DNA of 44,566 nucleotides, taken from NCBI GenBank assembly GCA_003141695.1, contig PLNE01000152.1, forward strand, positions 21,629-66,194, given 5' to 3'. Of this stretch, positions 21,166-40,131 are shown piece by piece. The notes under the pieces were generated by a model. The model worked only from the letters and a program-made list of their open reading frames with translations. It ran no database searches and had not been told where the DNA came from. Source of the DNA: Candidatus Dormiibacterota bacterium. Its GTDB lineage: Bacteria > Chloroflexota > Dormibacteria > Aeolococcales > Aeolococcaceae. Numbering within the stretch: the stretch's first letter is position 1; every line of letters begins with the position of its first letter. The translations under genes and the position numbers were made by a program.

Positions 21166-23769
21166 CTATCCGACCGGCGGACGCCCGGCGGCGAGGGAGA
21201 CGAAGACGTTCTGACCGGGCAGGTAGAGGGTCTGCTGCACTGCGGGGGAGGTGCTCGTTCCGTTGGCCCCGTTGGAGTCCCAGGGGTGGACCCCACCGTA
21301 GCCATCGAGCATGTACCCGCTCCTGCAGTCGGCGCCGGTGATGACGATGGAGCTGGCGATGTCCCAGCCGGGCCAGTAGGCGAAGTTGGTCGGGTTTTTC
21401 CCGTACTGGCTACCGAAGCCGTGAATGCCGCCGAAGCCGTCGAGGACGTAGCCGCCCCCGCCGCCCGGGCAGATCGCGACGTCGTTGGCGATGGTCCAGT
21501 TTGGCCAGTAGCCGGAGATCTGAGGCACGGCGGGCATCGGCGTGCCGGCTGCGGCGAAGGGATGGAGGCCGCCGAAGCCGTCGAGGACGTAGCCGCTGTC
21601 GGTGCCCGGGATCAGCACCAGCTTGATGGCGATGTCCCAATTGGGCCAGTAGCCGGTGACCTGAACCGGCGGAGCGTTGCCGAAGGGGTGCACGCCTCCG
21701 AAGCCGTCCAGGACGTAGCCGCTCGCGCCCTTGCTGCCGGCGATGACCGCCACGTCATTGGCGATGGTCCAGTTAGGCCAGTAGGGGCCACCTGTGGCCG
21801 CCGGCGCGCCCCCCACCTGGTGCAGACCGCCGAAGCCGTCCATGATCTGGCCGTAGGTCGGGTTGTACGGGTCGACGGCCACCGCCTTGGCGATCTGCCA
21901 CTGCGGCCACATCGGGCCACCGGAGATGAGCGGGGAGGAGACGGGCCCCAGCTGACCGTAGGCGCTCAGGCTGTACATGGCACCGAAGGGAAGGGCCGCC
22001 GAGGAGGTGGCGCCGGAGGGGATGGTGGTGGTGGCCTGCTGGACCTTGGTCAGGTCCGCCGAGCCGAGCTGGTTGTGGGCGTCGATGAAGAACGAGTACG
22101 TATCGCCTGGCAGTCCGGTGAAGGTGGTCGAGGTGGCAGAGGTGGTGGTGAACAGGTCCCACCCCAGTGAGGCCTGGTATACCCAGACGTCATAGCCGGT
22201 CGCCGCGACGTTCCCCTGGGTGCCCCACGAGAGCGTGAAGTTCGTGTGCGTGACCGTGGAACCGCCGTTGACGGTGGGCACCGTGGCGATCGGGACCACG
22301 CCGCCCGAGTGCTGGTTGTTGCCGTGGAAGGTTGGCCAGGAGTTGATCGGGATGCTGTTGGTGGAGGTTCCCGGGACCGCGAACGTGCTGATGGCGTACG
22401 CGCTGCCCACCTCGTAGGTGTCGATCATGAAGAGCTGCCCGGTGCCGAGATCGGCGATCGTCGGGGTCGCGAAGGCCACTCCGATCCCGCCCTCAGCATT
22501 GATGTTGGCCTGGTCGACGATGCCGCCGGACGCGCTCCATCCGTAGATGTAGCTGTTGCCCGGCGTCCACACGCCATCGGCACCGCCGCTGATCGGGGCG
22601 ATCGCCGGGCTGCCCAGGTTGGTCACCGGGGCGGACGTGGGGGCGCTGGCGCTCCAGAGGAGGTTGCCGCTCGGCCCCCAGACATAGACCACCGAGTTCT
22701 CATCCTGCTCGGCGATGTCCAGCGTGCCGTTTGCGCTCAGACTGCCGAGCGCCGGCGATCCGAAGTCGTCGCCCGAGGTGGACAGCGTGTCCAGGGTGCC
22801 GCCGGGCGCGGTCAGGATGTGGAGGTACGCGCCACGGTTGGCCGGTCCCATGGTCTGGCTGTAGAAGTGGCCGGTCCCGGTCACGATCTCCGGCGAGCCG
22901 TTGCCGGTGAGGTTGCCGGCCGCCGCCGACGACCACGTGACCTCGTTCTGGTCCACGGGCCAGACGTTCGCGTGTTCACAGCCCGAGAGGGTGGCATTGG
23001 GGGTGGGACAGCCGGTGGGTGGGATGGCGTACCACGCCGCAGTGCCCCACTGGTTGGGGAGGGAGTCGCCGCCCGCGATGATCCAGAGCTGCCCGTTGTT
23101 GTCGAGATTCACGAGCGTCGGTGTCTGCACCGCGCTGTCCCAGAGGGCGACGGGGAAACCGGGCAGGAGCTGGCCCTCGAAGTTCCAGGCGTACAGGAAG
23201 TGGTCGAGGCTCGAGGCCACGACGTCCTCCTCGCCGTTTCCAAACAGGTCACCGACCGCCACGCCGCCGAGGAAGCCGGGATTGAAGACGCCGCCCGACT
23301 CCTGATAGTCGTAGCCGGCAAAGACCGGCCAGCCGGGGACGCTGGACCCGTCCCCATTCCACGCGTAGACGTACCCGTTCTGGGAGGTGACCAGGACCTC
23401 GAGGCGGCCGTTGCCGTCGAGATCGGCGAGTGTCGGAGTGGTGTCGACGGCGTCACCCACGTTCTTGGGCCAGCCCGGCATGACCTGTCCGCTGGAGCTG
23501 AAGACGTACACGCTCCCGTTGGGGAATGCGGTGACGACCTCTCGCTGGCCGTTGCCGAAGAGGTCGCCCACGGCGGCCCCGGCATACGGCTGCGCTCCCC
23601 AGTAGGGGCTGTTTGCGGTGGTGGCGCCGGTGCTGAAGCTCCAGCTCGGCTGGAGGGTCACCGGCCCGCTGGCCGTGGCACCCACGGAGCTGGCGCCGGC
23701 CATCCCCAGGATCGGGAGGATGGCCGCGACGGCGACGATCTGTCGGCGGGAGAGGTGAGAATGGAGCAT
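21166..23769 (-). CDS. Secreted FG-GAP propeller + FN3 + six-repeat C-terminal module
   Basis: The 867-residue protein has a signal peptide (RRQIVAVAAILPILGMAGASSVGATA). An N-terminal propeller of about eight FG-GAP/VCBS-like repeats follows (AAVGDLFGNGQREVVTA, PTLADLDGNGRLEVLV, VAVGDLFGNGEEDVVAS) to about residue 460. Next is a fibronectin type III-like domain (TNFTLSWGTQGNVAATGYDVW to about residue 570). The last 270 residues are the six-repeat module shared by four other proteins here. It is probably exported and binds calcium or carbohydrate outside the cell; no enzyme motif is seen. A TACTCT hexamer lies only 4 nt before the ATG at 23769. Confidence 0.8.
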   Translation of the reverse strand: MLHSHLSRRQIVAVAAILPILGMAGASSVGATASGPVTLQPSWSFSTGATTANSPYWGAQPYAGAAVGDLFGNGQREVVTAFPNGSVYVFSSSGQVMPGWPKNVGDAVDTTPTLADLDGNGRLEVLVTSQNGYVYAWNGDGSSVPGWPVFAGYDYQESGGVFNPGFLGGVAVGDLFGNGEEDVVASSLDHFLYAWNFEGQLLPGFPVALWDSAVQTPTLVNLDNNGQLWIIAGGDSLPNQWGTAAWYAIPPTGCPTPNATLSGCEHANVWPVDQNEVTWSSAAAGNLTGNGSPEIVTGTGHFYSQTMGPANRGAYLHILTAPGGTLDTLSTSGDDFGSPALGSLSANGTLDIAEQDENSVVYVWGPSGNLLWSASAPTSAPVTNLGSPAIAPISGGADGVWTPGNSYIYGWSASGGIVDQANINAEGGIGVAFATPTIADLGTGQLFMIDTYEVGSAYAISTFAVPGTSTNSIPINSWPTFHGNNQHSGGVVPIATVPTVNGGSTVTHTNFTLSWGTQGNVAATGYDVWVYQASLGWDLFTTTSATSTTFTGLPGDTYSFFIDAHNQLGSADLTKVQQATTTIPSGATSSAALPFGAMYSLSAYGQLGPVSSPLISGGPMWPQWQIAKAVAVDPYNPTYGQIMDGFGGLHQVGGAPAATGGPYWPNWTIANDVAVIAGSKGASGYVLDGFGGVHPFGNAPPVQVTGYWPNWDIAIKLVLIPGTDSGYVLDGFGGLHPFAAAGTPMPAVPQISGYWPNWTIANDVAICPGGGGGYVLDGFGGIHGFGSQYGKNPTNFAYWPGWDIASSIVITGADCRSGYMLDGYGGVHPWDSNGANGTSTSPAVQQTLYLPGQNVFVSLAAGRPPVG
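21169..21978 (-). repeat. Six-repeat C-terminal module, copy A
   Basis: Six units of 42-50 residues. Units 2-6 open with G-x-[VIM]-[LM]-D-G-[FY]-G-G-[LVI]-H. Units 1-5 end with [YM]-W-P-[GNQ]-W-x-IA; the last ends YLPGQNV. The first unit is the most diverged of the five family members. Confidence 0.85.
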
Positions 23770-23859
23770 CGTAAGAGTAGGGTGCCGACTACCGCCAGAA
23801 GCGGGACCGCAGAAGGGTGCCCTGTTACACCTTCGTCATCCTCCCATCGGAGTAGGCGT

Positions 23860-24510
23860 GTGAGCGATGCAGCCCTGGCGAGCGCTCGCGACCGGAGGCA
23901 TCCGACGCCGCTGTTGCAACGGATTCATGGGCTGGACAGCGCGGTCGAGGCCTGGGCGGCGGGCCGCCGCAGCGGGCCGATCGATGCCACGGCGCATCTC
24001 CTCTCCTCGGCGGCCGATCGGAGCAAGCTCTGGGCCGCCATTGCCCTAGTGAGGGCCCTGACCGATCGCGAAACGGGGCGTCAGGCCGGGGCACGAGCCC
24101 TCGTCACCGTGGCCATCCAGACCGCGCTGGTGGAGGGACTGGTCAAGCGGGCCACACGGCGTGACCGGCCCGGCAGCGACGTCCCCCTCAAGTTTCACGC
24201 CCGGCGGCCGCCGAGCACCTCCTTCCCCTCCGGGCACGCCGCCTCGGCGGCGGCCGCGGCAATCCTTCTCGCCGACGGGAGGCCGCGCTGGCGAGCACCG
24301 CTCGGGTTGCTGGCCCTGGGGGTCGCCTGGTCCCGGGTCCAGACCGGGCTGCACCATGTGAGCGACGTCCTGGCCGGGCTGGCGCTCGGTGCCGCGGTTG
24401 GGCTGCTGGTCCGCCGGCTCCTGCCCCTGCCGGCGCCGACGGCGCGAGCGGCGGTGCCCCAGGCCCCCGCCACCGGTGCGGGAGCTCCCAAGGATCTCCG
24501 CGTACACTGA
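23860..24510 (+). CDS. PAP2-family membrane phosphatase
   Basis: The 216-residue protein has the three PAP2 phosphatase motifs: KRATRRDRP, PSTSFPSGHAAS and SRVQTGLHHVSDVLAG, with the catalytic His in the last two. Four or so hydrophobic segments fit an integral membrane enzyme. GTG 23860 is preceded by GGAG at 7 nt. The UbiA-type transferase gene starts 8 bp after its stop. The same pairing is found in mycobacteria (Rv3807c-Rv3806c), where these act in making decaprenylphosphoryl-ribose/arabinose, so this enzyme may dephosphorylate the 5-phosphoribosyl lipid. That assignment is inference from synteny. Confidence 0.85.
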   Translation: MSDAALASARDRRHPTPLLQRIHGLDSAVEAWAAGRRSGPIDATAHLLSSAADRSKLWAAIALVRALTDRETGRQAGARALVTVAIQTALVEGLVKRATRRDRPGSDVPLKFHARRPPSTSFPSGHAASAAAAAILLADGRPRWRAPLGLLALGVAWSRVQTGLHHVSDVLAGLALGAAVGLLVRRLLPLPAPTARAAVPQAPATGAGAPKDLRVH

Positions 24511-24518
24511 TCGATCCT

Positions 24519-25487
24519 ATGAGCGCGACCACCGGCGGCAGGCTGGTCGATGAGGGGGCGGCGGTCAGCGAGCTGGTCAGCCGGCCCGAGGCGGCCGGCA
24601 AGGGAGGACTCCCGGGCCTGGCCCTCGACCTGATCCGCACCGCCCGGCCCCGGCAATGGGTTAAGAACGGCTTCGTCCTGCTTCCGGCCGTCTTCGGCGG
24701 AGCCTTCGGGATGGCCGCGCTCGGCCGGACGGCGCTGGCCACCGCCGCCTTCTGCCTGGCTTCCAGCGGCCTCTACTTCATCAACGACATCGCCGACCGG
24801 GACGCTGACCGCCTCCATGAGCGCAAGCGCCACCGCCCTATCGCGGCCGGGAGGCTGGGCGTCGGCACCGCCGTGACCGCCGGGGTGGTGCTGATGGCCG
24901 CGGGCCTGCTCCTCGGTCTCGCCGCATCCCTCGAGGCGGGCGGCCTGCTCGCCGCCTACGTCGTCTCCACGATCGCCTACTCGGCATGGCTCAAGCACGT
25001 CGCGATCCTCGACGTCATCGTGATCGCTGCGGGATTTGTCCTTCGGGTCGGTGCCGGCGCCGCCGCGGCTGCGGTGGTCCCCAGCGAATGGCTCCTCCTC
25101 TGCAGCCTCTTCCTCGCCCTCTTCCTCGGTTTCGGCAAGCGGTACAACGAGCTGGTGCTGCTCGGAGAGGACGCCCAGTCCCACCGCCCGGTCCTCGGCG
25201 AGTACACGGCCGCCTCCCTGCATCAGTTCCTCAACGCCTCGATGCTCGGGGCGCTCTTCTCGTACTGCCTCTGGGTGTTCATCTCCACTCAGGGGCAGGA
25301 GCATCACGGGCTGGTGCTCACCATCCCCTTTGCCGTCTACGGCATCTTCCGCTACACCCTGCTGATGGAGACCCGCCGGGAGGGCGGCCAGCCCGAGGAG
25401 GTGGTGCTCCGAGACCGGCCCACCCAGCTGGCCGCGCTGCTCTGGGTCGCCGTCGCGCTGCTGGCGATCTACGGCCCGAGGCTCTGA
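24519..25487 (+). CDS. UbiA-family prenyltransferase, likely decaprenyl-phosphate phosphoribosyltransferase
   Basis: The 322-residue membrane protein has about eight hydrophobic segments and both Asp-rich UbiA motifs. The first is NDIADRDADRLHERKRHRPIAAG. The second region, around YNELVLLGEDAQSHRP, is of the type seen in DPPR synthases. RPRQWVKNGFVLLPAVF at the start is typical of decaprenyl-phosphate phosphoribosyltransferases, which join phosphoribose (PRPP) to polyprenyl phosphate. With the preceding PAP2 phosphatase it could supply a lipid-linked pentose for surface glycans. The first 30 residues are soluble. TACACT lies 10 nt before the ATG, so it may also have its own promoter. It overlaps the convergent glycosyltransferase by 19 bp. 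Confidence 0.82.
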   Translation: MSATTGGRLVDEGAAVSELVSRPEAAGKGGLPGLALDLIRTARPRQWVKNGFVLLPAVFGGAFGMAALGRTALATAAFCLASSGLYFINDIADRDADRLHERKRHRPIAAGRLGVGTAVTAGVVLMAAGLLLGLAASLEAGGLLAAYVVSTIAYSAWLKHVAILDVIVIAAGFVLRVGAGAAAAAVVPSEWLLLCSLFLALFLGFGKRYNELVLLGEDAQSHRPVLGEYTAASLHQFLNASMLGALFSYCLWVFISTQGQEHHGLVLTIPFAVYGIFRYTLLMETRREGGQPEEVVLRDRPTQLAALLWVAVALLAIYGPRL

Positions 25488-26623
25488 GCGCCCGGAGCGT
25501 GCACGCCTGCGACATCGCGCAGCAGGGCCGCGTGTCTCTCGACGACTGAATCCACCGACCACAGCTCCCGGGCCCGCGCCGCAGCCCGGACACGATCGGC
25601 CGGACCCGGCAGCGGCTCGGAGAGAAACTCCGCGATGGCGCCCGCATCCCGGGGCGGGACCAGGCGTCCGAGATGGACCTCCGTGAGCGGCACCCGGACC
25701 CCGGGCAGGTCGCTGGCGAGCGCCGGCACGCCGAGCATCAGGGCCTCCGCCTGCACGATGCCGAAGGCCTCCAGAGGGTTGATCGAGGGGAGCGCCAGCA
25801 CGTCGATCGAGGCGTAGAAGTCCGCCACCTGCGAGTCGGGAAGGAATCCGAGGAGCTGGATGCGGGGATCCCCGGCGGCGCGCCGCCGGACGCTCTCGAC
25901 GACCGAACCGCCCGCCACGGCGGCGAAGTCTCCGGCGAGCAGGAGGCGCGCGTCCGGATCGGAGAGCTGCCGGAAAGCGTCGACCAGGTACTCGATCCCC
26001 TTCTCCTCGACGAGCCGGCCAAGGAAGCCCACGTGCAGGCTACCGGTCGACCGGAAGGTGGGCATGCCTCCGGAGCGGTCGCGGCAGGGCGGCGGGATCG
26101 CCCTCAGCCGGGGCAGCAGGGCAGCGGCCAGGCGCGACGACTGGGCGTAGTCGGCGCTGGTGGCGACGACGGCCCGGCTTCGGTGCAGTGCGAGCCGCGA
26201 CGAGAGCTCGAGCGCCGCGGTCTGGGCCCGGTTGGCGAGGCCCGCCGGGAGGGTGACATCGCAGTGGTACATGGAGACGATTGGGGTTCGCCGGACCACG
26301 GCGGCGATGAGCCCGGCCTCCAGCAGGGGGAGATGGAGGAGCAGCGCCTGGCTCCGGGCGGCGACCCGGGCGACGGTGGGCACGAACGAGGGGCTGACCG
26401 CCCCCTTGCCGATGCGGGCGATCACCGGGGTGCGGATGACCTCCACACCGTGCAGCGTCTCCCGGGCCGGGAGCTTGGGATCGTGGCGGGCGGCGACCAC
26501 CGTGACCCGCCAGCCGCGTGCGGCCAGGCCCTCGGCGATTGCCCGGGCCGTCTCGGTCAGGCCGCTGACGTACGGGGCGTAGTAGGTCAGTGCCACCGCC
26601 AGGTCCCGGCGCCGGTCAGCCAC
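25469..26623 (-). CDS. Glycosyltransferase family 4 (GT-B fold)
   Basis: The 384-residue cytoplasmic enzyme begins at GTG 26623. TYYAPYVSGLTETARAIAEGLAARGW is the N-terminal nucleotide-free Rossmann domain with the usual Gly-rich loop. The C-terminal half has LHVGFLGRLVEEKGIEYLVDAF and LLGFLPDSQVADFYASIDVLALPS. It also has NPLEAFGIVQAEALMLGVPALASDLPG, the E-x7-E region that binds the donor nucleotide-sugar. It overlaps the upstream membrane-protein gene by 8 bp, so the two form an operon. The acceptor is probably a lipid-linked or surface glycan. Confidence 0.88.
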   Translation of the reverse strand: MADRRRDLAVALTYYAPYVSGLTETARAIAEGLAARGWRVTVVAARHDPKLPARETLHGVEVIRTPVIARIGKGAVSPSFVPTVARVAARSQALLLHLPLLEAGLIAAVVRRTPIVSMYHCDVTLPAGLANRAQTAALELSSRLALHRSRAVVATSADYAQSSRLAAALLPRLRAIPPPCRDRSGGMPTFRSTGSLHVGFLGRLVEEKGIEYLVDAFRQLSDPDARLLLAGDFAAVAGGSVVESVRRRAAGDPRIQLLGFLPDSQVADFYASIDVLALPSINPLEAFGIVQAEALMLGVPALASDLPGVRVPLTEVHLGRLVPPRDAGAIAEFLSEPLPGPADRVRAAARARELWSVDSVVERHAALLRDVAGVHAPGAQSLGP

Positions 26624-28805
26624 CGGCGACGCCCAGGAGCCGGATCGACAGGAGGCTCGGGTCCCCCGGAGCCGGGGAGGCCGCCGGCAGGAGGTTGTCC
26701 AGCTGGACGAGGGAGACGGGAGCTGGGTCGGAGAAGGTGATCGAGGTCGGGGACGTCCCGACCGCAACTGGCCCGGAGAGGGGGGCGGGGAGCAGCTGGA
26801 AGGAGGACGAGGCCCCGGTCTCGATCGACACGGCCACCGGCTCCGGCGCCACCTGGGGGAGTGCCTCGACGGTGAGGGTCACCTGGGTGACACCCGGGCT
26901 GTGCACGACCAGCACCTCACCGTCGTTCACCTGCCACTGTGACGGCCCCGTCGCGTCGGTCTCGGGGCGGAGGTAGTTGACGGCCCCGAGGGCGATGACC
27001 GCGCTGCCCCTGCTGAGGTCCAGGAACCTGAAGCGCGAGTCGCTCCCTACCACCACGCCGGGCGCGGCGCTGACGAAGTCCTGGTCATCCACGACCACGT
27101 AGCGGCGGTACGTCCCGTCGTCGTACTGCAGGGCGGCCACCCCCCCGTAGTCCGGATACACGAACGGGTAGTGCACGGCGGTCAGGTCCCTGGTTGCGTA
27201 CATCAGCCACAGCTGGTCGAAGTGATCGTTGCTGATGACCATCGCTCCGTCTCCCGTCGGGCCGGCCACGCTCCGGATCCAGCCGGCCGCCTGCTGGAAA
27301 TCGGCGTCGACCTGGCGCTGGGGGTCGGCGGCAGCCACCCACCCGTCCGTGGTGTGAACGTTGACGTACACGAAGGCGGCCGTCGCGCCGGCGAGGCCCA
27401 CCATGGCGATGTAGACGATCTCGCGCCAGCGGGCGAGCAGCACCTGAAGAAGCGACGTCCAGCCGATGGCGCTGAAGAGGAGGACGAGCGCGAGGCTGAT
27501 CTCGATCGCCCGGTCCTGCCCGTACGGGAAGTAGCGGACCGTGCTGAGCAGGATCACCGTCAGGGCGATCGAGGCGGTGACACAGGCGATCAGCCGGCGG
27601 ACGGGGGAGATGGCCATCGCCGCCACCAGGCCGATCGCGATCATGCCCGCGAGGGGCAGCGCGTACAGGCTCCCCTGGGGGGTCCACACCTCCCGGGTGC
27701 CCGTGAAGTGCGCCAGGACGGTGAGCGCCGGTCCGAGGAACGCCGAGGGCTGGGTGCTGCTGGCGCCGGCGGCGTTGAGCACCAGTGACCTCACCGCGTC
27801 GTACCAGACGAAGGGCGCGATCACCGCCGCGACGACGGCGAGCACGACCGCCGCCCGCAGCGGAGCGAGCAGCGTCCTGGGATTCCTGACCAGGACAAAG
27901 GCGACCATCCCCAGGCCGATCACCGGCAAGTACTCGGTGTAGCTGCCGGCCAGGGCCGCGACCGCGCCCGCGGCCAGCCAGAGGGGAGGCCGTTGCTCCG
28001 GCGCGGACGTCCGGCCACGGTCGACGTAGGCGGCGAAGAGCGTCAGTGCGATCGGCACGGTGGCGATGCCGAGCATCCCCGCCGAGTTCGCGTTGAAGAC
28101 CTCGAAGGCGAGCACCCCCGACATGGAGGCGACGAAGCCACCCGCCAGCCCGATCTCTCGGCGGAGCCCGAGCGTGGCGGCCGCGGCAGCGCAGGCGCCG
28201 GGCAGCAGGGCGAGCCAGAGCGCGGAGACCGTGTACCAGGTCTGCTCCGGGTTGGTGTGGTCGGCGTCGGCGATCGCCGCCTGGTCCAGCTCCTCGCCGA
28301 TCCGCAGGCCGGTGGTGAGGTGGATGCGGGTGTAGCCCCAGACCGGGGGCTCGTCGGCGGGGGACGGGACGTCGGTCGCCGGGTGCTGCAGCAGCCAGTC
28401 GCTGACGGTGATGAAGCTATACGCGTCGTCGCCGCTGGTGGGCGCCACCAGGGTGGCGCCGTAGGGCTCGGCCGGTCGGAGGACGAGAAGGAGGGGGACG
28501 GCTCCCAGGACAAGGGCCAGTCCCAGCCAGCGCGCATCCAGCAGTGGCCGCCACCAGCGCCGCACCCGCCACGTCCTCACCGCGAGGGCGACCGCCGCCA
28601 GCCCGGCGAGGATCGGAAGTCCCACCTGGACACCGACCACGATCGTCGTGGCGTGAAGCCCGACCACCAGGGCCATCGCCCCCACCGCGGGTAGGGCGGG
28701 GAGCAGCCGTCGCTGCCAGGTCTCGGGGAGCCACGCGAGGACGGCGACGCCACTGGCGCCGAGGAGCACCAGGGCCACGACGGCGACTTCGAGGAGGCTC
28801 AGCAT
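26616..28805 (-). CDS. Large polytopic membrane protein (GT-C-like) with C-terminal soluble domain
   Basis: The 729-residue protein has about 11-13 hydrophobic segments over residues 1-490. APTSGDDAYSFITVSDWLL lies in the first large loop, where the acidic pair resembles the GT-C active-site motif. The C-terminal about 230 residues are soluble, with ISNDHFDQLWLMYATRDL and DSRFRFLDLSRGSAVIALG. A paralogue is at 42885-44566, matching through both domains. It may move or transfer sugars from lipid carriers; the activity is not established. It is coupled to the GT4 gene downstream, so the pair may act on one glycan. Confidence 0.65.
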   Translation of the reverse strand: MLSLLEVAVVALVLLGASGVAVLAWLPETWQRRLLPALPAVGAMALVVGLHATTIVVGVQVGLPILAGLAAVALAVRTWRVRRWWRPLLDARWLGLALVLGAVPLLLVLRPAEPYGATLVAPTSGDDAYSFITVSDWLLQHPATDVPSPADEPPVWGYTRIHLTTGLRIGEELDQAAIADADHTNPEQTWYTVSALWLALLPGACAAAAATLGLRREIGLAGGFVASMSGVLAFEVFNANSAGMLGIATVPIALTLFAAYVDRGRTSAPEQRPPLWLAAGAVAALAGSYTEYLPVIGLGMVAFVLVRNPRTLLAPLRAAVVLAVVAAVIAPFVWYDAVRSLVLNAAGASSTQPSAFLGPALTVLAHFTGTREVWTPQGSLYALPLAGMIAIGLVAAMAISPVRRLIACVTASIALTVILLSTVRYFPYGQDRAIEISLALVLLFSAIGWTSLLQVLLARWREIVYIAMVGLAGATAAFVYVNVHTTDGWVAAADPQRQVDADFQQAAGWIRSVAGPTGDGAMVISNDHFDQLWLMYATRDLTAVHYPFVYPDYGGVAALQYDDGTYRRYVVVDDQDFVSAAPGVVVGSDSRFRFLDLSRGSAVIALGAVNYLRPETDATGPSQWQVNDGEVLVVHSPGVTQVTLTVEALPQVAPEPVAVSIETGASSSFQLLPAPLSGPVAVGTSPTSITFSDPAPVSLVQLDNLLPAASPAPGDPSLLSIRLLGVAGG

Positions 28806-28831
28806 GGGCTGGGAATGGGCAAGCCGGCCCC

Positions 28832-28837
28832 ATGGTA
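28832..28837 (-). promoter_or_regulatory. Putative -10 element of the membrane protein/GT4 operon
   Basis: TACCAT lies 26 nt before the ATG at 28805, leaving a leader of about 20 nt with no Shine-Dalgarno. The 109-bp gap also contains a GC-rich hairpin near 28900. Confidence 0.35.
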
Positions 28838-28914
28838 ATGAAGCGGCACGCCGCTCCTCGGCCCGGCCCCGTAGGCGATCGCCTCCTCCCTTCCGCGCAC
28901 GCCGCGTGGAGGGG

Positions 28915-31128: not shown

Positions 31129-31135
31129 GACAGCC

Positions 31136-31141
31136 AAGGTA
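31136..31141 (-). promoter_or_regulatory. Putative -10 element (leaderless) of the PQQ-type protein gene
   Basis: TACCTT lies 7 nt before the ATG at 31128. Confidence 0.45.
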
Positions 31142-31237
31142 GCAACCGGGGATCCGGCTGTCATCTCCGGGTGGCGCGAAGGGGGTGCCGCACCCGTGCC
31201 CGGTGAGGGCGCGTGGGCACCGGGACGGGCCCGGGGA

Positions 31238-34200
31238 TCAGGAGGCGGTGACGATGCCGACGACGACGTCCTGGTTCGGGAAGTACCCGGTTACCGTGAG
31301 CATCGGCGCACCCCCGGCCGGATGGATATCACCGAAACCGTCCAGGGTGTAGACGCCGGTGCCGCCGTAGGCCACCGCGATGCCGCGGACGATGTCCCAG
31401 TTTGGCCAGTAGCCGCTGGGGGTGATCACCGGGGCGTTGCCGAAGGGGTGGATGCCCCCGAAGCCGTCCACCGTGTAGCCCCCAGTGGCGGTGGCGACGA
31501 TCCCGCGGGCGATGGTCCAGCCCGGCCAGTACCCGGAGGGGGCTTGGTAGGGCGCCCCGTTGAACGGGTGCAGCCCCCCGAAGCCGTCCATCACGTAGCC
31601 CTCCTCGGTGCCCGGGATCACCGTGATCTTGGTGGCGATGTCCCAATTGGGCCAGTAGCCGGTGCCGTTGCAGGGGACGTCGCCGATGACCGCGCTGGAG
31701 TCGGCCCAGGGATGGAGGCCGCCGAAGCCGTCGAGGACGCAGCCGGCGGCGTGCTGAACGCCGCCCACGGTGATGCAGAAGGCGGCGACGTCGTTGGCGA
31801 TGGTCCAGCCCGGCCAGTAGCCGGTGATGTCGGGGATGGCGGGCATGGGAGTGCCGGCGGCGGCAAACGGATGCAGCCCACCGAAGCCGTCCATCACCCA
31901 CCCCGAGTACTGCCCGGTGGTGTCACAGGGATCCATGACGATCGACTTGGCGATCTGCCAGCCCGACCAGTAGCCGGTGATCGTGACCGGCGGCGAGTCG
32001 CCGAAATTGTGGACGCCGCCGTAGGCGTCGAGGGTGTACCCGCCACCTGAGGTGGCCGGCGGTGAAACGTAGGTGTAGGCGTCAGGGCCGGTGGACGACG
32101 GGCCAGTCGGGTTGGTCGCCGTAATGTTGACCGTCCCCGCGGCGCCCGCGGGCGTCAGCGCTCTGAGCTGAGTCGGACTGATGAACTCCAGCCCGGTGGC
32201 AAGGTTGGACCCGAAGTCTACCGTGGCGCCCGCTTCAAAGCCGGTGCCGTTGATCGTGACCAACTGGTAACCCAATGGCGATCCGAACGACGGAATTACC
32301 GACGTGACGGACGGCGTGGGTGGCGGGCCGCTTTGCACGTACGTGTACGCGGAGGTGCCGTCCTCCAGGCTGCTCCCATAGGCGTCGGTAGCCTGGAGGT
32401 AGACGTCGCCGGCACCCGCCGCAGGGGTGGAGCAGCTGAAGCTGCTAGTGGTCACGTTGGTCGGGGTCACCGAAACTCCCCCCAGGGTGACGGTCATGCT
32501 CCCGTCGGTGGGAAATCCGTATCCGCTCACCGTGACCGTCTGGTTTCCACCCAACGGACCCGCCGCCGGGGTCAGGGACGTCACCACTGGCGGCGAGTCA
32601 CCCTGCACACTCTGCACGATCAGCGTCTGGTCGATGGTGCTGCTGATGGCCGCATCGCCCACTGCCCAGCAGTTGACCAACCCGTCACAGGTGACGCCGA
32701 AGAGCTCGTCACTGATGGTGGAGGGGTTGGGACTGGGAGGGCTGGTGGAGACGTACCAACCCCCGTCCGTGTCCTGGAGCACAAAAGTCTGAGCGACGGA
32801 GCCCGTGGTTGGGAAGTATGTGCCCACGGCCCAGCAGTCGGCCGCGCTCGCGCACGAAACCGCATACAGGTCAGAGGCGACGCCGGGGCTGATACTGCCG
32901 ATGCTGACCCAGTCCGTTCCGTTGTACTGCTCGACAAGGGTCGAGTTGTACATCCCGGGGATGTCGAAGACGCCGACCGTCCAGCAATTGTCGCGGCCCG
33001 TGCACGCCACGGAATAGAGCGAGTTGAAGGTGATGGCCGAATTGCTCATTCCGCTGTCTGGACTGCTGACCACGGACCAACCGCTGCCAGCGTAATGGTA
33101 GATGAGCGTCTGGTATTGATCCGAGCTGTCGTACTCCGCTCCGACCGCCCAGCAGTCGGTCGCGCTCACGCAGCTGATCCCATCCAGGAGGTCGCCATAC
33201 TGATCCAAGTCGACGGACCATCCGCTGCCGTTGAACTCCAGGATCAGCGGCTGGTATGCGTCGATCGCGGTGTCGACGTAGTCTCCGACCGCCCAGCATT
33301 CCGTGGAGCTGGCGCAGGCGACGTCGAAGAGCCAGTTCCCCTCAGATCCCACATCGGGGCTGGCCACGATGGACCACGTGGTCCCGTCGTACCATTCGAT
33401 GAGGGTCTGGCTCACCCCACCCGCGACCTGGTAGTCGCCGACGGTCCAGCAGTCGGTGGGTCCGGCGCATGCGATGCCGTTCAGAACGTTGTTGGCGTTG
33501 GCGCCCTCACTGGGACTGCTCACCGTCCCCCAACCGCCTCCGATGTTCTCCTCGATCGCGGTTTCCGGTCCGCTCGCACCGGTGCCCACGGCCCAACACT
33601 CATCGGGGCTCGTGCAGGTGTCCGCGTACAGGACATCGCTGCTCGGGCTGCTGGCGACCGTCCACGGACCAGCAGGCTGCTGGAGCTCAGCGATGATCGT
33701 CCCGGCGTCGATGCCCACCGCCCAGCACACGGCGGCGTTCACGCAGGTGACCCCGGTGAGATCGACCAAGGCGCCCGTGTCGGGATTGGAGTAAAGGCTC
33801 CAAGCGCTACCGTTCCACTGGTCGAGCGCGGTGCTACCGATCGACCCGACCGACCAACAATCCGTGGCACTCAGACAGGTCACGCCGGCCAGTCCCACGC
33901 CATTCCCGTCAGCACTCGTGGCGGTGTACTGCGTCCAACTGGTGCCGTCGTAGTGTACGAACAGGGTCTCCTCATAGGGGGCGGAGTACGAGGTGCCGAC
34001 CGCCCAGCAGTCGGTGGCACTGGCACAGCTCACCGACGCCAGGTCGCCTTCCACCAGCGCACTGGGCGTGACGACAGACCAAGAGGTGCCGTCATACTGA
34101 TAGAAGAGGGCCCGCTGCAGGTAGGGCGCACCGTTGCCCTCCTGCTGATAACCGACTGCCCAGCAGTCGGTCGAGTCGACGCAGGTCACCGACGAGAGCG

Positions 34201-34897
34201 GCCCCAGATTGTATGCGGCAATCGACCAGGCCGTCCCGTTGAACTGCTCGATCGACGTGGTGCCGGCAGCCCAGCAATCGGTGGCGCTGATGCAGGTCAC
34301 TGATGAGAGGCCGCCCCCGTTCGGGCTCGAGCCGTCCACCGACCACGTGGTCCCGTTGAATTGTTCGATGACGCTCTGGGCCTGGCCCGGCTCGGCTCCC
34401 ACCGCCCAACAGTCCGTGGAGCTGACGCAGGTCACCGATGAGAGGGGTGATACGGGGTACCCGGTCAACGCCCAGTACTCCCCGTTCCACTGCTCGATCA
34501 CAGTGCCGACCGCCCAGCAGTCGTTGGCGCTGGGACACGTGATGCTGGCCAGCGTGCTGAGGCCGGTGCCGTTGGGAGATGGGATCACATCCCACTCCTC
34601 CGCTCCCGTCGGCGGGATCACGGTCCCATCGGCCGTCGATCTCAGCGAGTTGCTCGAGGTTCCCAGACCAAGGGGTCCGTTCACGGTCTGCGGTTCTCCG
34701 CTGGATCCTTGTAACTGGCCACGGGCTGACGGAGCCGGCGAGTTCACGGCAGGCGCTCCGCCTGCCGGGTGTGGTGGGGTCAGGGCGGAGGAGAAGGCAG
34801 CCCTGGCCGGGAGGCTATTGGGACCGAGGCCCAGGGCGCCGAAGCACAGCAGCGTGGCCGCCATCCCGACGATGGCGATACGTCTCGACCGAGCCAC
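31238..34897 (-). CDS. Giant secreted protein: 14-repeat double propeller, two IPT/TIG domains, six-repeat module
   Basis: This 1219-residue protein starts at GTG 34897, preceded by a GGGAGGAGGG site 10 nt upstream. Its signal peptide is RSRRIAIVGMAATLLCFGALGLG. After a Pro/Ser linker come 14 repeats with a paired-Cys motif C-x(6)-CWAVG (for example CVSSTDCWAVG, CASATDCWAVG) plus a strand like QYDGTSWSVV. Fourteen equals two seven-bladed propellers. Two IPT/TIG domains follow (VTSLTPAAGPLGGNQTVTVSG and VTSVIPSFGSPLGYQLVTING) near residues 800-950. The C-terminal 267 residues are the six-repeat module. The Cys pairs suggest disulfides and an extracellular place. An in-frame ATG at 34954 is less likely. 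Confidence 0.82.
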   Translation of the reverse strand: MARSRRIAIVGMAATLLCFGALGLGPNSLPARAAFSSALTPPHPAGGAPAVNSPAPSARGQLQGSSGEPQTVNGPLGLGTSSNSLRSTADGTVIPPTGAEEWDVIPSPNGTGLSTLASITCPSANDCWAVGTVIEQWNGEYWALTGYPVSPLSSVTCVSSTDCWAVGAEPGQAQSVIEQFNGTTWSVDGSSPNGGGLSSVTCISATDCWAAGTTSIEQFNGTAWSIAAYNLGPLSSVTCVDSTDCWAVGYQQEGNGAPYLQRALFYQYDGTSWSVVTPSALVEGDLASVSCASATDCWAVGTSYSAPYEETLFVHYDGTSWTQYTATSADGNGVGLAGVTCLSATDCWSVGSIGSTALDQWNGSAWSLYSNPDTGALVDLTGVTCVNAAVCWAVGIDAGTIIAELQQPAGPWTVASSPSSDVLYADTCTSPDECWAVGTGASGPETAIEENIGGGWGTVSSPSEGANANNVLNGIACAGPTDCWTVGDYQVAGGVSQTLIEWYDGTTWSIVASPDVGSEGNWLFDVACASSTECWAVGDYVDTAIDAYQPLILEFNGSGWSVDLDQYGDLLDGISCVSATDCWAVGAEYDSSDQYQTLIYHYAGSGWSVVSSPDSGMSNSAITFNSLYSVACTGRDNCWTVGVFDIPGMYNSTLVEQYNGTDWVSIGSISPGVASDLYAVSCASAADCWAVGTYFPTTGSVAQTFVLQDTDGGWYVSTSPPSPNPSTISDELFGVTCDGLVNCWAVGDAAISSTIDQTLIVQSVQGDSPPVVTSLTPAAGPLGGNQTVTVSGYGFPTDGSMTVTLGGVSVTPTNVTTSSFSCSTPAAGAGDVYLQATDAYGSSLEDGTSAYTYVQSGPPPTPSVTSVIPSFGSPLGYQLVTINGTGFEAGATVDFGSNLATGLEFISPTQLRALTPAGAAGTVNITATNPTGPSSTGPDAYTYVSPPATSGGGYTLDAYGGVHNFGDSPPVTITGYWSGWQIAKSIVMDPCDTTGQYSGWVMDGFGGLHPFAAAGTPMPAIPDITGYWPGWTIANDVAAFCITVGGVQHAAGCVLDGFGGLHPWADSSAVIGDVPCNGTGYWPNWDIATKITVIPGTEEGYVMDGFGGLHPFNGAPYQAPSGYWPGWTIARGIVATATGGYTVDGFGGIHPFGNAPVITPSGYWPNWDIVRGIAVAYGGTGVYTLDGFGDIHPAGGAPMLTVTGYFPNQDVVVGIVTAS
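31241..32041 (-). repeat. Six-repeat C-terminal module, copy C
   Basis: Six units of 39-53 residues, nearly identical in protein and DNA to copies D and E, including unit-specific inserts such as the Cys-containing loops of units 1-3. The last unit ends YFPNQDVVVGIVTAS. Confidence 0.9.
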
Positions 34898-34952
34898 AGC
34901 GGTTCGTCCCTCCTCCCGCGTCCCCAAACCGACTCTGGGCGACGCCACCGGC

Positions 34953-34958
34953 ATCCTA
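34953..34958 (-). promoter_or_regulatory. Putative -10 element of the double-propeller gene
   Basis: TAGGAT lies about 55 nt before the GTG at 34897. The ATG at 34954 overlaps the hexamer, which supports the downstream start with its Shine-Dalgarno. Confidence 0.35.
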
Positions 34959-34978
34959 GCAAAGGGCTACGGGGACCT

Positions 34979-37222
34979 TCAGGAGGCGGAGACGATGCCG
35001 ACGACGACGTCCTGGTTCGGGAAGTAGCCGCTCACCCAGAGGAACGGCGCCCCTCCCGCGGGGTGGACGCCGCCGAAGCCGTCCAGGGTCTCGACGCCCG
35101 TGCCTCCCGAGGCCACGGCGATGCCGCGGACGATGTCCCAGTTTGGCCAGTAGCCGTTGGGGGTGATCACCGGGGCGTTGCCGAAGGCATGGATACCCCC
35201 GAAGCCGTCCACGGTGTAGCCCCCGGTGCCAGTGGCCACGATCCCACGGGCGATGGTCCAGCCGGGCCAGTACCCGGAGGGGGCGTAGAAGGGCGCCCCG
35301 TTGAACGGATGCAGCCCTCCGAACCCGTCCATCACGTACCCGTAGTCGTGTCCGGGTACCACCGCGATCTTGGTGGCGATGTCCCAATTGGGCCAGTAGC
35401 CGGTGCCGGTGCAGGGGACGTCTCCGATGACCGCGCTGGAGTCGGCCCAGGGATGGAGTCCGCCGAAGCCGTCGAGAACGCAGCCGGCGGCGTGCTGGAC
35501 GCCGCCCACCGTGATGCAGAAGGCGGCGACGTCGTTGGCGATGGCCCAGCCCGGCCAGTAGCCGGTGATGGCGGGGATGGCGGGCATGGGCGTGCCGCCG
35601 GCGGCGAAGGGATGGAGCCCACCGAAGCCGTCCATCACCCAGCCGGAATACTGCCCGGTGGTGTCACAGGGGTCCATGACGATGGACTTGGCGATCTGCC
35701 AGCCCGCCCAGTAGCCGGTGATCGTGACCGGCGGCGCGTCGCCGAAGTTGTGGACACCGCCGTAGGCGTCGAGGCTGTACCCGCCACCGGCGTCGAACCC
35801 TCCGGCGATGGCGCTCCAGTAGTCGTTGCTGCCGCTGTCCATGCCGAGCGCCCAGATACCGATGCCCCTCAGTCCGTCCACGTTCACCAGCTGGTACCTG
35901 GCCTCCAGAGACTGGGTGCTGTCGTAGTAGACCTCGCGCGAGCCTCCGTAGGTGGTGCACTTAGGGTTTGTCGGCTCCGACAGCCAACTCGCCCACGCGG
36001 TCTGCGAGGTGGCGTCGTAGCTCTGAGTGAGATCGGGGAGACCGCAGGAGGAGAGGTCGTAGAGGACGTCGGAGTAGTACGGAGTGTCGACGTTGGGGGA
36101 GCTCGCGTAGGGGGCTTCGAAGGCTGTTGAGGTGGTTGAGTAGGCGACCCCGTAATACGGCACCCCGAGGAGGAGCTTGGCCGCCGGCATGTACTTGAGG
36201 TAACCACTCACAACCGAGGTGTCGGTCCACGGGTAGGGGCCGGCGAGCGGGTCGTTGGGCTGAGCGTTCCCACCGGAGTAGAGGCCGTAGGTCATCACGT
36301 CGATGGCGCTCACCACCGGCGCCAGCGCGGAGAGGTTCCACAGCTCACCACCCTGGTACGCGGAGGCGTAGGTGTCCACGCTCAGCTCGTCGCCGGCCGG
36401 GAGCGCGGTCGCGAGCTCGCTCATCAGCGAGGTGAACTGCGCGGAGTCTTGGCCGAGCCCGCTGTCCGGCTCGAAGTCGATGTTGACCCCGTCCACGCCC
36501 CGGCTCTTCACCTGCGTCACCACGTTGCTGACGAAGGTGGAGCCGGCTGACGTGGTGAGCAGCGTATTCATGCCGTTGTCACAGGTGGTGCTGCCACAGA
36601 GGTATGCGAACGTCGCCACCACCCGGTCGCCCGCCGCGTGAGCGGCGTTGAAGAGGCTGGTCGCCTGCTGGCTGCTCCACCCCTGCAATCCGGCATCGTT
36701 GATGAAGTTGCCGTCGTAGTTGACGTCGATGGCGAAGTAGGCGATGGTGGAGAGCAGGTTGAACTGAAGGTCCGTCTGCCAGTCCCCGCTCGTCACCTCA
36801 CCGTTCTGGACGAAGCCGAAGACCTCGGGCCCGCCGCCCGCCGCACCCGACTCCGTGAGACTGCCCGTCGCTGTCGACGCGGCAGCACCTGCCGTGACGC
36901 CGGCGGAGAAGTGATCGATGGGGTGCTGGAGAGGCGTGACCTGCCCTCCCTCGACGACGCCCGGAACGGATGGACCGTAGCTCTCGTCCATGAGCACGTG
37001 CGGGCCGGGGGTGGCTACGGCAGAGGCTCCCGTACCGCCGCCCGTCGCAGCCACGGACGTGGCCAACCCACTGCCGGCGAGGCAGGCGACGGCGGTGAGG
37101 ACGGCGAGACAGGAGACGTGCCGGGCTCTGAGCACCGAGGCCGGATGATGGCATGGGGTCCCCCACCATGGCAACCGCCGGCGATCGCCGGGTTCTGCCA
37201 CGCTCGGCCTTCTCGCGGTCAT
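34979..37222 (-). CDS. Secreted GH18 chitinase-like protein with six-repeat module
   Basis: The 747-residue protein has a long basic N-terminus and a hydrophobic signal segment (VSCLAVLTAVACLAGSGLA). The GH18 domain spans about residues 130-460. GVDGVNIDFEP carries the DGxxxDxE catalytic motif, with the acid at about residue 250. VMTYGLYSGGNAQ and LLGVPYYGVAYS fit the later GH18 strands, and GLRGIGIWALGMDSG is the last-strand Trp region. It may cut beta-1,4 GlcNAc polymers or a related glycan. The last 267 residues are the six-repeat module. ATG 37222 has GGAGGA at a 9-nt spacing and starts 28 bp after the upstream gene's stop, suggesting a shared transcript. Confidence 0.85.
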   Translation of the reverse strand: MTARRPSVAEPGDRRRLPWWGTPCHHPASVLRARHVSCLAVLTAVACLAGSGLATSVAATGGGTGASAVATPGPHVLMDESYGPSVPGVVEGGQVTPLQHPIDHFSAGVTAGAAASTATGSLTESGAAGGGPEVFGFVQNGEVTSGDWQTDLQFNLLSTIAYFAIDVNYDGNFINDAGLQGWSSQQATSLFNAAHAAGDRVVATFAYLCGSTTCDNGMNTLLTTSAGSTFVSNVVTQVKSRGVDGVNIDFEPDSGLGQDSAQFTSLMSELATALPAGDELSVDTYASAYQGGELWNLSALAPVVSAIDVMTYGLYSGGNAQPNDPLAGPYPWTDTSVVSGYLKYMPAAKLLLGVPYYGVAYSTTSTAFEAPYASSPNVDTPYYSDVLYDLSSCGLPDLTQSYDATSQTAWASWLSEPTNPKCTTYGGSREVYYDSTQSLEARYQLVNVDGLRGIGIWALGMDSGSNDYWSAIAGGFDAGGGYSLDAYGGVHNFGDAPPVTITGYWAGWQIAKSIVMDPCDTTGQYSGWVMDGFGGLHPFAAGGTPMPAIPAITGYWPGWAIANDVAAFCITVGGVQHAAGCVLDGFGGLHPWADSSAVIGDVPCTGTGYWPNWDIATKIAVVPGHDYGYVMDGFGGLHPFNGAPFYAPSGYWPGWTIARGIVATGTGGYTVDGFGGIHAFGNAPVITPNGYWPNWDIVRGIAVASGGTGVETLDGFGGVHPAGGAPFLWVSGYFPNQDVVVGIVSAS
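34982..35782 (-). repeat. Six-repeat C-terminal module, copy D
   Basis: Same length and unit inserts as copies C and E. Long stretches of near-identical DNA (for example the units around 35370-35640) point to recent duplication or gene conversion. The last unit ends YFPNQDVVVGIVSAS. Confidence 0.9.
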
Positions 37223-37250
37223 GGCGAGGGGTCCTCCGATGGCCTCGATC

Positions 37251-39860
37251 TCACGGGGCGCTGACCAGCCCGCAGTAGAGGCTGGACCCGGAGAGGTAGG
37301 AGGTCACGCCGAGGAGGGGAGCCCCGCCGGCAGGGTGCACCATCCCGAACGCGTCGAGGGTGTAGGCTCCGATGCCCCCCGAAGCCGCGGTAATGCCGCG
37401 GACGATGTCCCAGTTTGGCCAGTAGCCGGTGGCGGTGATCACCGGGGCGTTCCCGAAGGGATGGATGCCCCCGAAGCCGTCCACGGTGTAGCCCCCGGTG
37501 GCGGTGGCCACGATCCCGCGGGCGATGGTCCAGCCCGGCCAGTAGCCGGATGGAGCGTAGTAGGGCGCGCCGTTGAACGGGTGCAGCCCGCCGAAGCCGT
37601 CCATCACGTAGCCCCCGTCGGTGCCCGGGATCACCGTGATCTTGGTGGCGATGTCCCAATTGGGCCAGTAGCCGGTGCCGGTGCAGGGGACGTCTCCGAT
37701 GACCGCGCTGGAATCGGCCCAGGGGTGGAGGCCGCCGAAGCCGTCGAGAACGCAGCCGGCGGCGTGCTGGACGCCGCCCACCGTGATGCAGAAGGCGGCG
37801 ACGTCGTTGGCGATGGTCCAGCCCGGCCAGTAGCCGGTGATGTCGGGAACGGCGGGCATGGGGGTGCCGGCGGCGGCGAAGGGGTGGAGGGCGCCGAAGC
37901 CGTCCATCACCCACCCCGCGTACTGCCCGGTGGTGTCACAGGGATCCATGACAAGGGACTTGGCGATCTGCCAGCCCGACCAGTACGCCGAGACGGTGAC
38001 CGGCGGCGAGTCGCCGAAGTTGTGGACACCGCCGTAGGCGTCGAGCGTGTAGCCGCCGCCCGCCGCTGTCACGCCACTCTGAGGCCCGCTGGCCTCGACA
38101 TCCTGGATCCAGGTGGCCCAGTTGTCGTCGTCACCCGCCGTGATCACGTTGGCGGCGGTGTACTCTCCGACCACCCAGGCTCCGTGGGGGTCGGCGGGGT
38201 CGTAGGCCGCGCCCCCGTAGTCACCCCAGCGCTCGCCGTCGTAGCCGTCGATGCACCCGTTGCAGGTCGCCGTGTCCGCAACACTGCTGGCATGTGCGGC
38301 ATCCGCGAAGGTCGGCCCGTTCGCGTAGCCCGCACCCTGTCCCACGGCCTCGACGGTGGCGAGCGTCGACGAGGTGGAGACGTCCACCGACCCGACCATG
38401 TCGCCGTCGGCGTCGAAGGTCACCGACGGGTAGTAGGCGTAGGTGCCGTTGCCGCCGACATCCCAGTCCTGACCGGGCAGGATCTGCACCGAGCCGGCAG
38501 CGGCTTCCGCCTCGAGGAAGCGGGCACAGGCGTCGCGCTGGGTATTCCCACACGCGTCATTGGCGGTGGTCCAGAGCAGGCCGTTCATCCAGACGGCATC
38601 GAGGAGACGATCGTCATCGGTGTTGAGCAGGTACTGCGTGCCCGGCTGGGGGACGTACGGCGGTGCCGCGGTGGGGGTCATCGAGGGGTCGTACTCGGTG
38701 TACCGGACGTTGCCTGCCCCCGGTGTGCCGCTGATGTCGATCATGCCGAGCGTCGGCGAGCTGGTGGTTTCCCAGAAGGTCGAGTCGGAGTTGTTGTACA
38801 CAGCCCACTCGTCGCTCGTGGAGCTGAGCGACACGGCGGGCACGACGCCGAAACGGGAGGCGTCGGGGTTGGAGCCGAAAAGCTGAACGGTCCGGGGCGG
38901 CGAGATGGCCCCTGCGCCGCCGATAAGGTCGGCCTTCTGGATCACCTCGGTCTGCTCGCCGAGGGGCGCGCAGGCGTCGCACGCGAAATCGTTCCAGGAG
39001 ACCACGATCTTGTCGTTGCTGAATCCGAGTTTGGGCTCGTCGTTGATGACGCCGTTCGGCGCCGTCGAGGGCGTCCAGTCGAGTGCGTATGCCGTCCATG
39101 ACGAGGACGCGCTGATCGTGCTGGCGTTCGAGGCCAGGATCTCCACGCAGCTCCACGGCTTTCCCAGGGTCGTGTTGACCTGGACCCCGGACACGTACCA
39201 GCGGTCGGAGAGAGGGTCGAAGGCGATCTGCGGTTCGAGGGTCGGGGTGAGGATCGCAGCCCCGCTGAAGCAGGACGGGAAGAGGGCGTCGAGGTCAAGG
39301 GCAAACTGCTCAGTGCCACTGCGGTTGTAGCCCCATAGGGTGCTGTTGACGATCTCCGCCACCTGCGTGCTCGACACCGCCAGCGTGTCATCGGGTGGCG
39401 CGATGGACTGCGAGGGGTCACTGCACGCGCCACCGGCGGTGCACCACTGGTCGATGTCGCCGTCGTGCGAGGCCGCCTCGAATCCGGTGAGCAACGGACC
39501 GTTGGCGGTGCTCCCCTCCATCGTTCCGGCGGAGATGCTCGTGGTCGGAGGGGAGACGATCTCCGATGGAGATGCCGCACGGAGCCGTGCCGCGGCGAGG
39601 GCTGCCGGGTGGGGGGTGAGGAACGGGGCTGGAGCGGTCTCCGGCGCCGGTGCCGTGGCAGAGACGCTGGTCAGGGACACTCGGCCGAGGGGGTGCAATG
39701 TCCCGTAATCGGCACGGGGGACCGTCACGCTGAGCCGGGCGCTCACCGTCGACGGCGGTGCCGAGTTCGCGGGCGCCGCCGACGAGATCGTGCTCCCGCC
39801 GAGAACCAGGAGGACCAGCGGCAGGACGGCCCGCCGCGCGAAGACAGACTCGATAGTCAT
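37251..39860 (-). CDS. Secreted protein of unknown N-terminal fold with six-repeat module
   Basis: The 869-residue protein starts at ATG 39860 with a signal peptide (ARRAVLPLVLLVLGGSTISS). The next about 100 residues are a Pro/Ala/Ser linker. Residues about 120-600 form one or more beta-rich extracellular domains. They include DDTLAVSSTQVAEIVNSTLWGYN and LEPQIAFDPLSDRWYVSGVQ, like propeller proteins that report on 'P-P-D-T' motifs, and several Cys pairs. I see no catalytic signature. The last 267 residues are the six-repeat module. It is followed at 28 bp by the GH18 gene, likely in one operon. In-frame starts further upstream, to 40205, cross the opposite-strand coiled-coil gene and are rejected. 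Confidence 0.78.
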   Translation of the reverse strand: MTIESVFARRAVLPLVLLVLGGSTISSAAPANSAPPSTVSARLSVTVPRADYGTLHPLGRVSLTSVSATAPAPETAPAPFLTPHPAALAAARLRAASPSEIVSPPTTSISAGTMEGSTANGPLLTGFEAASHDGDIDQWCTAGGACSDPSQSIAPPDDTLAVSSTQVAEIVNSTLWGYNRSGTEQFALDLDALFPSCFSGAAILTPTLEPQIAFDPLSDRWYVSGVQVNTTLGKPWSCVEILASNASTISASSSWTAYALDWTPSTAPNGVINDEPKLGFSNDKIVVSWNDFACDACAPLGEQTEVIQKADLIGGAGAISPPRTVQLFGSNPDASRFGVVPAVSLSSTSDEWAVYNNSDSTFWETTSSPTLGMIDISGTPGAGNVRYTEYDPSMTPTAAPPYVPQPGTQYLLNTDDDRLLDAVWMNGLLWTTANDACGNTQRDACARFLEAEAAAGSVQILPGQDWDVGGNGTYAYYPSVTFDADGDMVGSVDVSTSSTLATVEAVGQGAGYANGPTFADAAHASSVADTATCNGCIDGYDGERWGDYGGAAYDPADPHGAWVVGEYTAANVITAGDDDNWATWIQDVEASGPQSGVTAAGGGYTLDAYGGVHNFGDSPPVTVSAYWSGWQIAKSLVMDPCDTTGQYAGWVMDGFGALHPFAAAGTPMPAVPDITGYWPGWTIANDVAAFCITVGGVQHAAGCVLDGFGGLHPWADSSAVIGDVPCTGTGYWPNWDIATKITVIPGTDGGYVMDGFGGLHPFNGAPYYAPSGYWPGWTIARGIVATATGGYTVDGFGGIHPFGNAPVITATGYWPNWDIVRGITAASGGIGAYTLDAFGMVHPAGGAPLLGVTSYLSGSSLYCGLVSAP
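37254..38054 (-). repeat. Six-repeat C-terminal module, copy E
   Basis: Matches copies C and D through five units with the same inserts. The last unit is more diverged (ends YLSGSSLYCGLVSAP), having lost the P-G/N-Q-D motif. Confidence 0.88.
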
Positions 39861-39900
39861 GGCGGAAACTCGGATGTGGAGGGGGACGGGGGCGCGGCGG

Positions 39901-39906
39901 ATGGTA
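39901..39906 (-). promoter_or_regulatory. Putative -10 element of the 39860-34979 gene pair
   Basis: TACCAT lies 40 nt before the ATG at 39860. No ribosome-binding site is clear. The rest of 39861-40131 holds the divergent promoter for the coiled-coil gene and nothing else I can support. Confidence 0.35.
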
Positions 39907-40096
39907 ACAGCGCTGTGCCTTTCCAGAAACGGACGTGACGGCATCGTTGCAGCGCCGGAACGCTTCGAGGACTCAGGCCGGGGCCTCCTGACGGCCGCCG
40001 CCCGCCGCGTTCCCCACCTTCCCCGGCACCGTGTCAGGGGTGTCCAGAAGCCGTCCGCCACCGTCCCGACCGCCGACCACTGGGCCCGGGTGGGGC

Positions 40097-40102
40097 TATG
40101 AT
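40097..40102 (+). promoter_or_regulatory. Putative -10 element of the coiled-coil/GT operon
   Basis: TATGAT, close to consensus, lies 29 nt before the ATG at 40132. The short leader carries GAGGAG just before the start. Confidence 0.5.
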
Positions 40103-40131
40103 CGCGATCGCCACCGCAGATCGAGGAGAGC

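Follow-up and report, generated by a model that had tools for sequence, protein, structure and literature searches.

A six-unit repeat module on exported proteins of an uncultured Dormibacterota: predicted propeller fold and putative role in envelope binding

We analyzed a 44,566-nucleotide stretch of DNA (the window) from an uncultured soil Dormibacterota and found five exported proteins that end in the same module of six repeat units. A six-bladed β-propeller is a well supported prediction for its fold, and binding to the cell envelope is its best-supported role, inferred in the absence of binding data. Taken together, we consider it probable that the module is a six-bladed, envelope-binding propeller tag, and that in phage lysins chains too short to form a ring assemble into one. 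Propellers that serve as wall-targeting modules are a known kind; the repeat described here lies outside the families searched.

Six-unit modules in the window and their relatives

The module forms the C-terminus of five ORFs, all on the minus strand, and was delimited by parsing its units. The ORF at 21166–23769 joins an FG-GAP-like propeller (PF13517, E-value 5.1e-09) to a module at 21169–21978 whose first unit is degenerate. The ORF at 28915–31164 starts with a hydrophobic segment (residues 26–48) and a PQQ-type propeller (PF13360, 1.3e-15) and ends in a module at 28918–29691, with units at 29551–29679, 29425–29550, 29299–29424, 29161–29298, 29032–29160 and 28918–29031. The ORF at 31238–34954 carries DCWAVG-type repeats, TIG domains (PF01833, 1.5e-23) and a module at 31241–32053. 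To this last module, those at 34982–35794 and 37254–38066 are 91 and 87% identical in protein sequence. The former belongs to a GH18 glycosidase (34979–37222, with the GH18 domain at 35837–36637; PF00704, 5e-24), the latter to a protein of no known family, without a Pfam match (37251–40205). The last ORF is a mechanical one that begins at a GTG; its true start is probably near 39.86 kb, where the signal peptide begins (hydrophobic segment at residues 117–136 of the mechanical ORF), in agreement with the earlier placement of the start. The DCWAVG repeats are 30% identical to CEAVG repeats of a module gene outside the window (L007), and are probably another unnamed propeller. Located among the module genes is a polytopic membrane protein without a module or Pfam family (26616–28805), adjoined by an ORF that reads as glycosyltransferase-like (25469–26767).

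All five module proteins possess a hydrophobic N-terminal segment of signal-peptide type, and none has an LPxTG motif or a C-terminal membrane anchor. Marginal hydrophobic stretches inside 31238–34954, 34979–37222 and 37251–40205 partly overlap the module and are probably strands, not anchors. A first reading of the letters alone (the sequence-only reading) had described the N-terminal parts as unrelated, and this was borne out: BLASTP found no match between any of them at 1e-3, and the modules all match one another with 44–91% protein identity.

The units have the consensus GYVLDG[FW]GG[LV]HPFG..YWPGWDIARG and a length of 35–53 residues in the five window modules. Each of the five genes does end in six units, as first described, and in 21166–23769 this holds only when the degenerate first unit (YSLSAYGQLGPV..MWPQWQIAK) is counted. 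A repeat array that arose by chance is excluded by the E-values of the module profile, which range from 1e-103 (21169–21978) to 8e-159 (31241–32053), and by the recurrence of the same array in dozens of other loci. We then counted units with an iterated unit profile in 103 loci with 86 closed ORFs. Exactly six units were detected in 39 of these ORFs and five in 22; the units that the profile missed are mainly degenerate first or last ones. Six units are the rule across Dormibacteria and Acidimicrobiia, and longer arrays have a period of six. For example, one ORF (L048:5175–8295) has 15 detected units with a spacing of 42,42,42,42,84,42,42,42,42,83,.. residues, and since 84 is two unit lengths, the array is three sets of five units plus one degenerate unit each. 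This protein carries three successive six-unit modules in a single chain.

The altered last unit seen in the window turned out to be general. In 52 six-unit modules, the second tryptophan (W28) is present in 78, 92, 84, 82 and 53% of units 1 to 5, respectively; in unit 6 the commonest residue at this position is glutamine (22%), not tryptophan.

No family in Pfam, NCBIfam, PHROG or PDB covers the window-type module. A significant match to a characterized domain, which the sequence-only reading had named as a refutation, was sought and not found, and a literature search returned no description of the repeat or of the related repeat discussed below. Several weak candidates were rejected: PknD and protein H10 (8fjf) match only at E-values of 0.2–0.4, PHROG 32842 only at 0.002 across 31 residues, and DUF3653 scores below its cut-off. 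DUF2507 matches seven of 54 relatives (best 6.7e-7, alignment A3) and was absent in nine relatives rescanned. A viral fold library gave generic propellers only.

The assemblies of Dormibacterota and Acidimicrobiia in which named relatives were found are without exception metagenome-assembled. Among 201 genomes of the window's phylum, matches are confined to the window's own class, which indicates that the module does not belong to the phylum at large. Matching records under the labels Myxococcaceae, Verrucomicrobiales and Bifidobacterium breve each represent one assembly, which may be misbinned or mislabelled. The modules of the B. breve-labelled assembly closely resemble those of an assembly from Acidimicrobiia (L042, L074 and L084), and here a wrong label is probable. 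Finished phage genomes and plasmids gave no match to the window-type module.

Predicted fold of the module

The sequence-only reading had suggested a closed fold, perhaps a six-bladed propeller, and had proposed structure prediction as a check. AlphaFold2 was run on the module at 28918–29691 with an alignment of 54 sequences and gave a confident model (pLDDT 94.2, pTM 0.91). Its 18 core strands are six A-B-C triplets, with strands B and C of the first blade at the N-terminus and a strand A at the C-terminus. Each blade would consist of the strands IARGIVL (A), GYVLDG (B) and GLHPFG (C), so that the chain is predicted to begin at strand B of blade 1 and to finish with strand A. Classical propellers have four strands per blade. 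The model meets the expectation of sequential antiparallel β-sheets, six in number, and fails that of four strands per blade: three are predicted, and a short fourth strand occurs only once (residues 108–110). In the DSSP assignment, the C-terminal strand (251–257) is an A strand whose sole free partner is the N-terminal B strand (4–9). As it can pair only there, the predicted ring apparently closes with its last strand against the first blade, an inference from strand pairing. That strand belongs to the altered sixth unit, and its pairing with blade 1, if it shuts the ring, would explain why the last unit differs from the others.

The best PDB fold matches are six-bladed YWTD propellers such as LRP4, LRP6 and megalin (probability 1.00, E-value 4e-5, TM about 0.6, large rmsd). 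These have the same number of blades as predicted for the module, but their blades are larger and the identity is only about 10–13%. Membership of that family would require a Pfam match or the YWTD motif (Ldl_recept_b); the module has no Pfam match and fails on this point. The sister family described below includes a lysin domain of six units, which was predicted with the same strand pattern, also 18 strands (pLDDT 92.9); its best fold matches are mostly seven-bladed WD40 proteins. In view of these matches and the TM of about 0.6, the blade number rests on the counts of strands and units. Structure prediction, the search for similar folds in PDB and the recurrence of six units in different species together support the six-bladed propeller that had been suggested, its closure being inferred.

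Fusion partners, genome copies and the putative ligand

A survey of the domains to which the module is fused, likewise proposed at the outset, returned partners rich in wall enzymes. In 102 segments outside the module, Pfam identified GH18 (8), C39_2 (8), Amidase_2 (7), Glucosaminidase (7), CHAP (6), CAP (4), YkuD (2), M23 (2) and Rv2525c-like (2) domains. Further partners are FG-GAP and PQQ propellers, subtilases and cellulases, and nothing about these propellers, subtilases and cellulases is specific to peptidoglycan. In several proteins the module is N-terminal and the C-terminal partner reads as YkuD, CAP or C39. The pattern expected of a wall-targeting tag, a terminal module on many unrelated wall enzymes, is fulfilled. 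LysM, SH3b and choline-binding modules offer a likeness, which we infer from their being terminal modules common to many wall enzymes and lysins; their fold and sequence differ from those of the window module, which has no match to them in Pfam.

The assembly of the window's genome comprises 241 contigs and 3.1 Mb (80% complete, 4.6% contaminated) and contains ten copies of the module. Five lie outside the window: on a GH5 enzyme and a CAP/TIG protein (GH5 and CAP by Pfam) and, by sequence reading only, on a peptidase-like protein, a repeat propeller and another glycosidase-like protein. The sole CAP match of the genome sits on a module protein. Eight of the ten copies share 82–93% DNA identity, and the matches run from the first unit to near the stop codon. 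Near-identical modules on unrelated N-terminal parts indicate that the module moves as a cassette. The high DNA identity does show duplication or gene conversion, as would be expected if the module were merely a stability or spacer domain without a ligand, spread by recombination between repeats. We give this reading very little credence, because aromatic, aspartate and histidine positions are conserved over two phyla, and because the module or its sister is present in phage lysins and tail proteins.

That modules this alike occur on enzymes acting on different substrates speaks for a single common ligand. The same observation bears on the possibility that the module is a carbohydrate-binding domain that targets external chitin, cellulose or foreign walls instead of the producer's surface. 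The GH18 and GH5 partners are what such a domain would have, and the C-terminal modules of phage lysins do target the wall that is cut. However, almost the same module is found in one genome on proteins that are not glycosidases (the CAP protein, the DCWAVG-type propeller and the peptidase-like protein), and different substrates should select different modules. We therefore regard substrate targeting as unlikely, without dismissing it.

Our preferred explanation is that the ring is an envelope-targeting module on secreted proteins with unrelated N-terminal parts. Its ligand would belong to the envelope of the producing cell itself and, by inference, would most likely be a wall glycan, and binding would probably occur through the repeated Y-W..W-D loops. 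The ring may then keep glycosidases, peptidases and other propellers attached to the cell surface, an anchoring that is likewise inferred. In the window's genome MurA is present and Omp85 had no match, which is what a monoderm with peptidoglycan should show, as far as an incomplete assembly can tell. The proposal of a common ligand- or wall-binding module in the sequence-only reading gains indirect support from the near-identical modules on unrelated exported proteins, the wall-enzyme partners, and the lysin and tail relatives; direct support from binding data is lacking.

A sister family and proposed ring assembly in phage proteins

The GYWLVASDGG repeat is known from actinobacteria, and we used it as a probe for a sister family, which has the motif GYWLVASDGG(I/V)FxFGDAxFxGS. 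No Pfam model covered these repeats in the examples scanned. If the two families are related, their repeats should be homologous in register. This was the case: hhalign aligned the two profiles over 228 columns (probability 97.8, E-value 1.1e-12), and BLASTP between the repeats reached 61 bits, compared with at most 26 bits for reversed-sequence controls. The GYW..DGG..FGDA..GS motif is absent from the window units, which read GYVLDGFGGLHPFG..YWPGW, and they are thus a sister, not a member, of the GYW family. In one genome of the window's family (G014), the sister repeat was matched 25 times and the window-type module not at all. Its sister repeats are fused to C39 and YkuD domains (48 and 41% identity) homologous to enzymes that carry the window-type module elsewhere. 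The two families share a unit length of about 42, the strand order, six units per cellular module and YkuD/C39 partners. The sister family differs in lacking the YWPGWDIAR loop and in also forming tails of one, two or three units on phage lysins. As the missing loop is the aromatic Y-W..W-D loop, the two families may bind different ligands.

Sister repeats lie at the extreme C-terminus of phage lysins, and nine of ten phage ORFs with sister repeats that were scanned (IMG/VR) are Amidase_2 or GH25 lysins. The window-type module itself occurs in two phage tail proteins whose genes immediately follow that of the tape measure. Sister units were counted in 53 non-redundant phage ORFs by scanning for the unit core with a cut-off of 8 bits (the highest score in 756 other ORFs was 2.8). 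One unit was found in three ORFs, two units in 20, three in 23, six in four, 12 in two and five in a single ORF, in which a 77-residue gap holds a degenerate sixth unit; no four-unit array was found among the 53. Lysins carry 1, 2, 3 or 6 units, tail proteins 6 or 12. Because of the relatedness among these ORFs, the counts are not independent events, and two of the two-unit proteins have a degenerate third unit by eye. Three phage ORFs (L142, L188 and L189) carry just one unit of the sister type, located at the C-terminus or close to it; with one unit per chain, a ring would need six chains. The GX15bay protein at L143:3639–7553 (MK557849.1, QBQ74878.1), annotated as glycoside hydrolase family 25, was rejected as a lysin, as its sequence reads as a tail protein. 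It has two sets of six GYW units.

We propose that the sister family may do a related job for phage lysins, in which two-blade chains would probably form trimers and three-blade chains probably dimers, each giving the same six-bladed ring. The proposed precedent for the two-blade lysins is the Ralstonia lectin RSL, in which three chains, each with two binding sites, come together as a six-bladed ring (PMC6631993). RSL and AAL, both fucose lectins, are six-bladed lectin rings as proposed for the module; neither has a sequence match to it in Pfam or PDB. The propeller of the phage phi11 receptor-binding protein has a putative GlcNAc-binding cavity and serves in recognition of the host wall (PMC6115969), but it has five blades and was not matched by the module in a PDB sequence search.

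The phage proteins also bear on the idea that the module is a protein-protein scaffold through which exported proteins attach to a shared partner or an S-layer rather than to a glycan. Many propellers bind proteins, as do the YWTD propellers that head the PDB matches; glycan binding is nevertheless a better fit to the wall-enzyme partners, the C-termini of lysins and the tail proteins of phages, and we consider a scaffold decidedly unlikely. For the envelope-binding propeller, we infer from the unit counts that a ring probably takes one chain in bacteria, and two or three in phage lysins. With no more than even confidence, we extend this to a superfamily of propeller wall-lectins, in which host and phage exploit the same ring, built in bacteria from one chain and in phage lysins from a pair of three-blade chains or a trio of two-blade ones; the window module would be one branch.

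If this explanation is true, phage lysins gain a wall-binding fold for which our literature search found no description, and the unit counts of 1, 2, 3, 6 and 12 in phage proteins offer a direct test of whether chains shorter than a ring assemble into one. Dormibacteria and Acidimicrobiia, which are large and mostly uncultured, would own a surface-targeting tag on many exported proteins. As this tag is recognizable by sequence, part of their surface proteome would become predictable.
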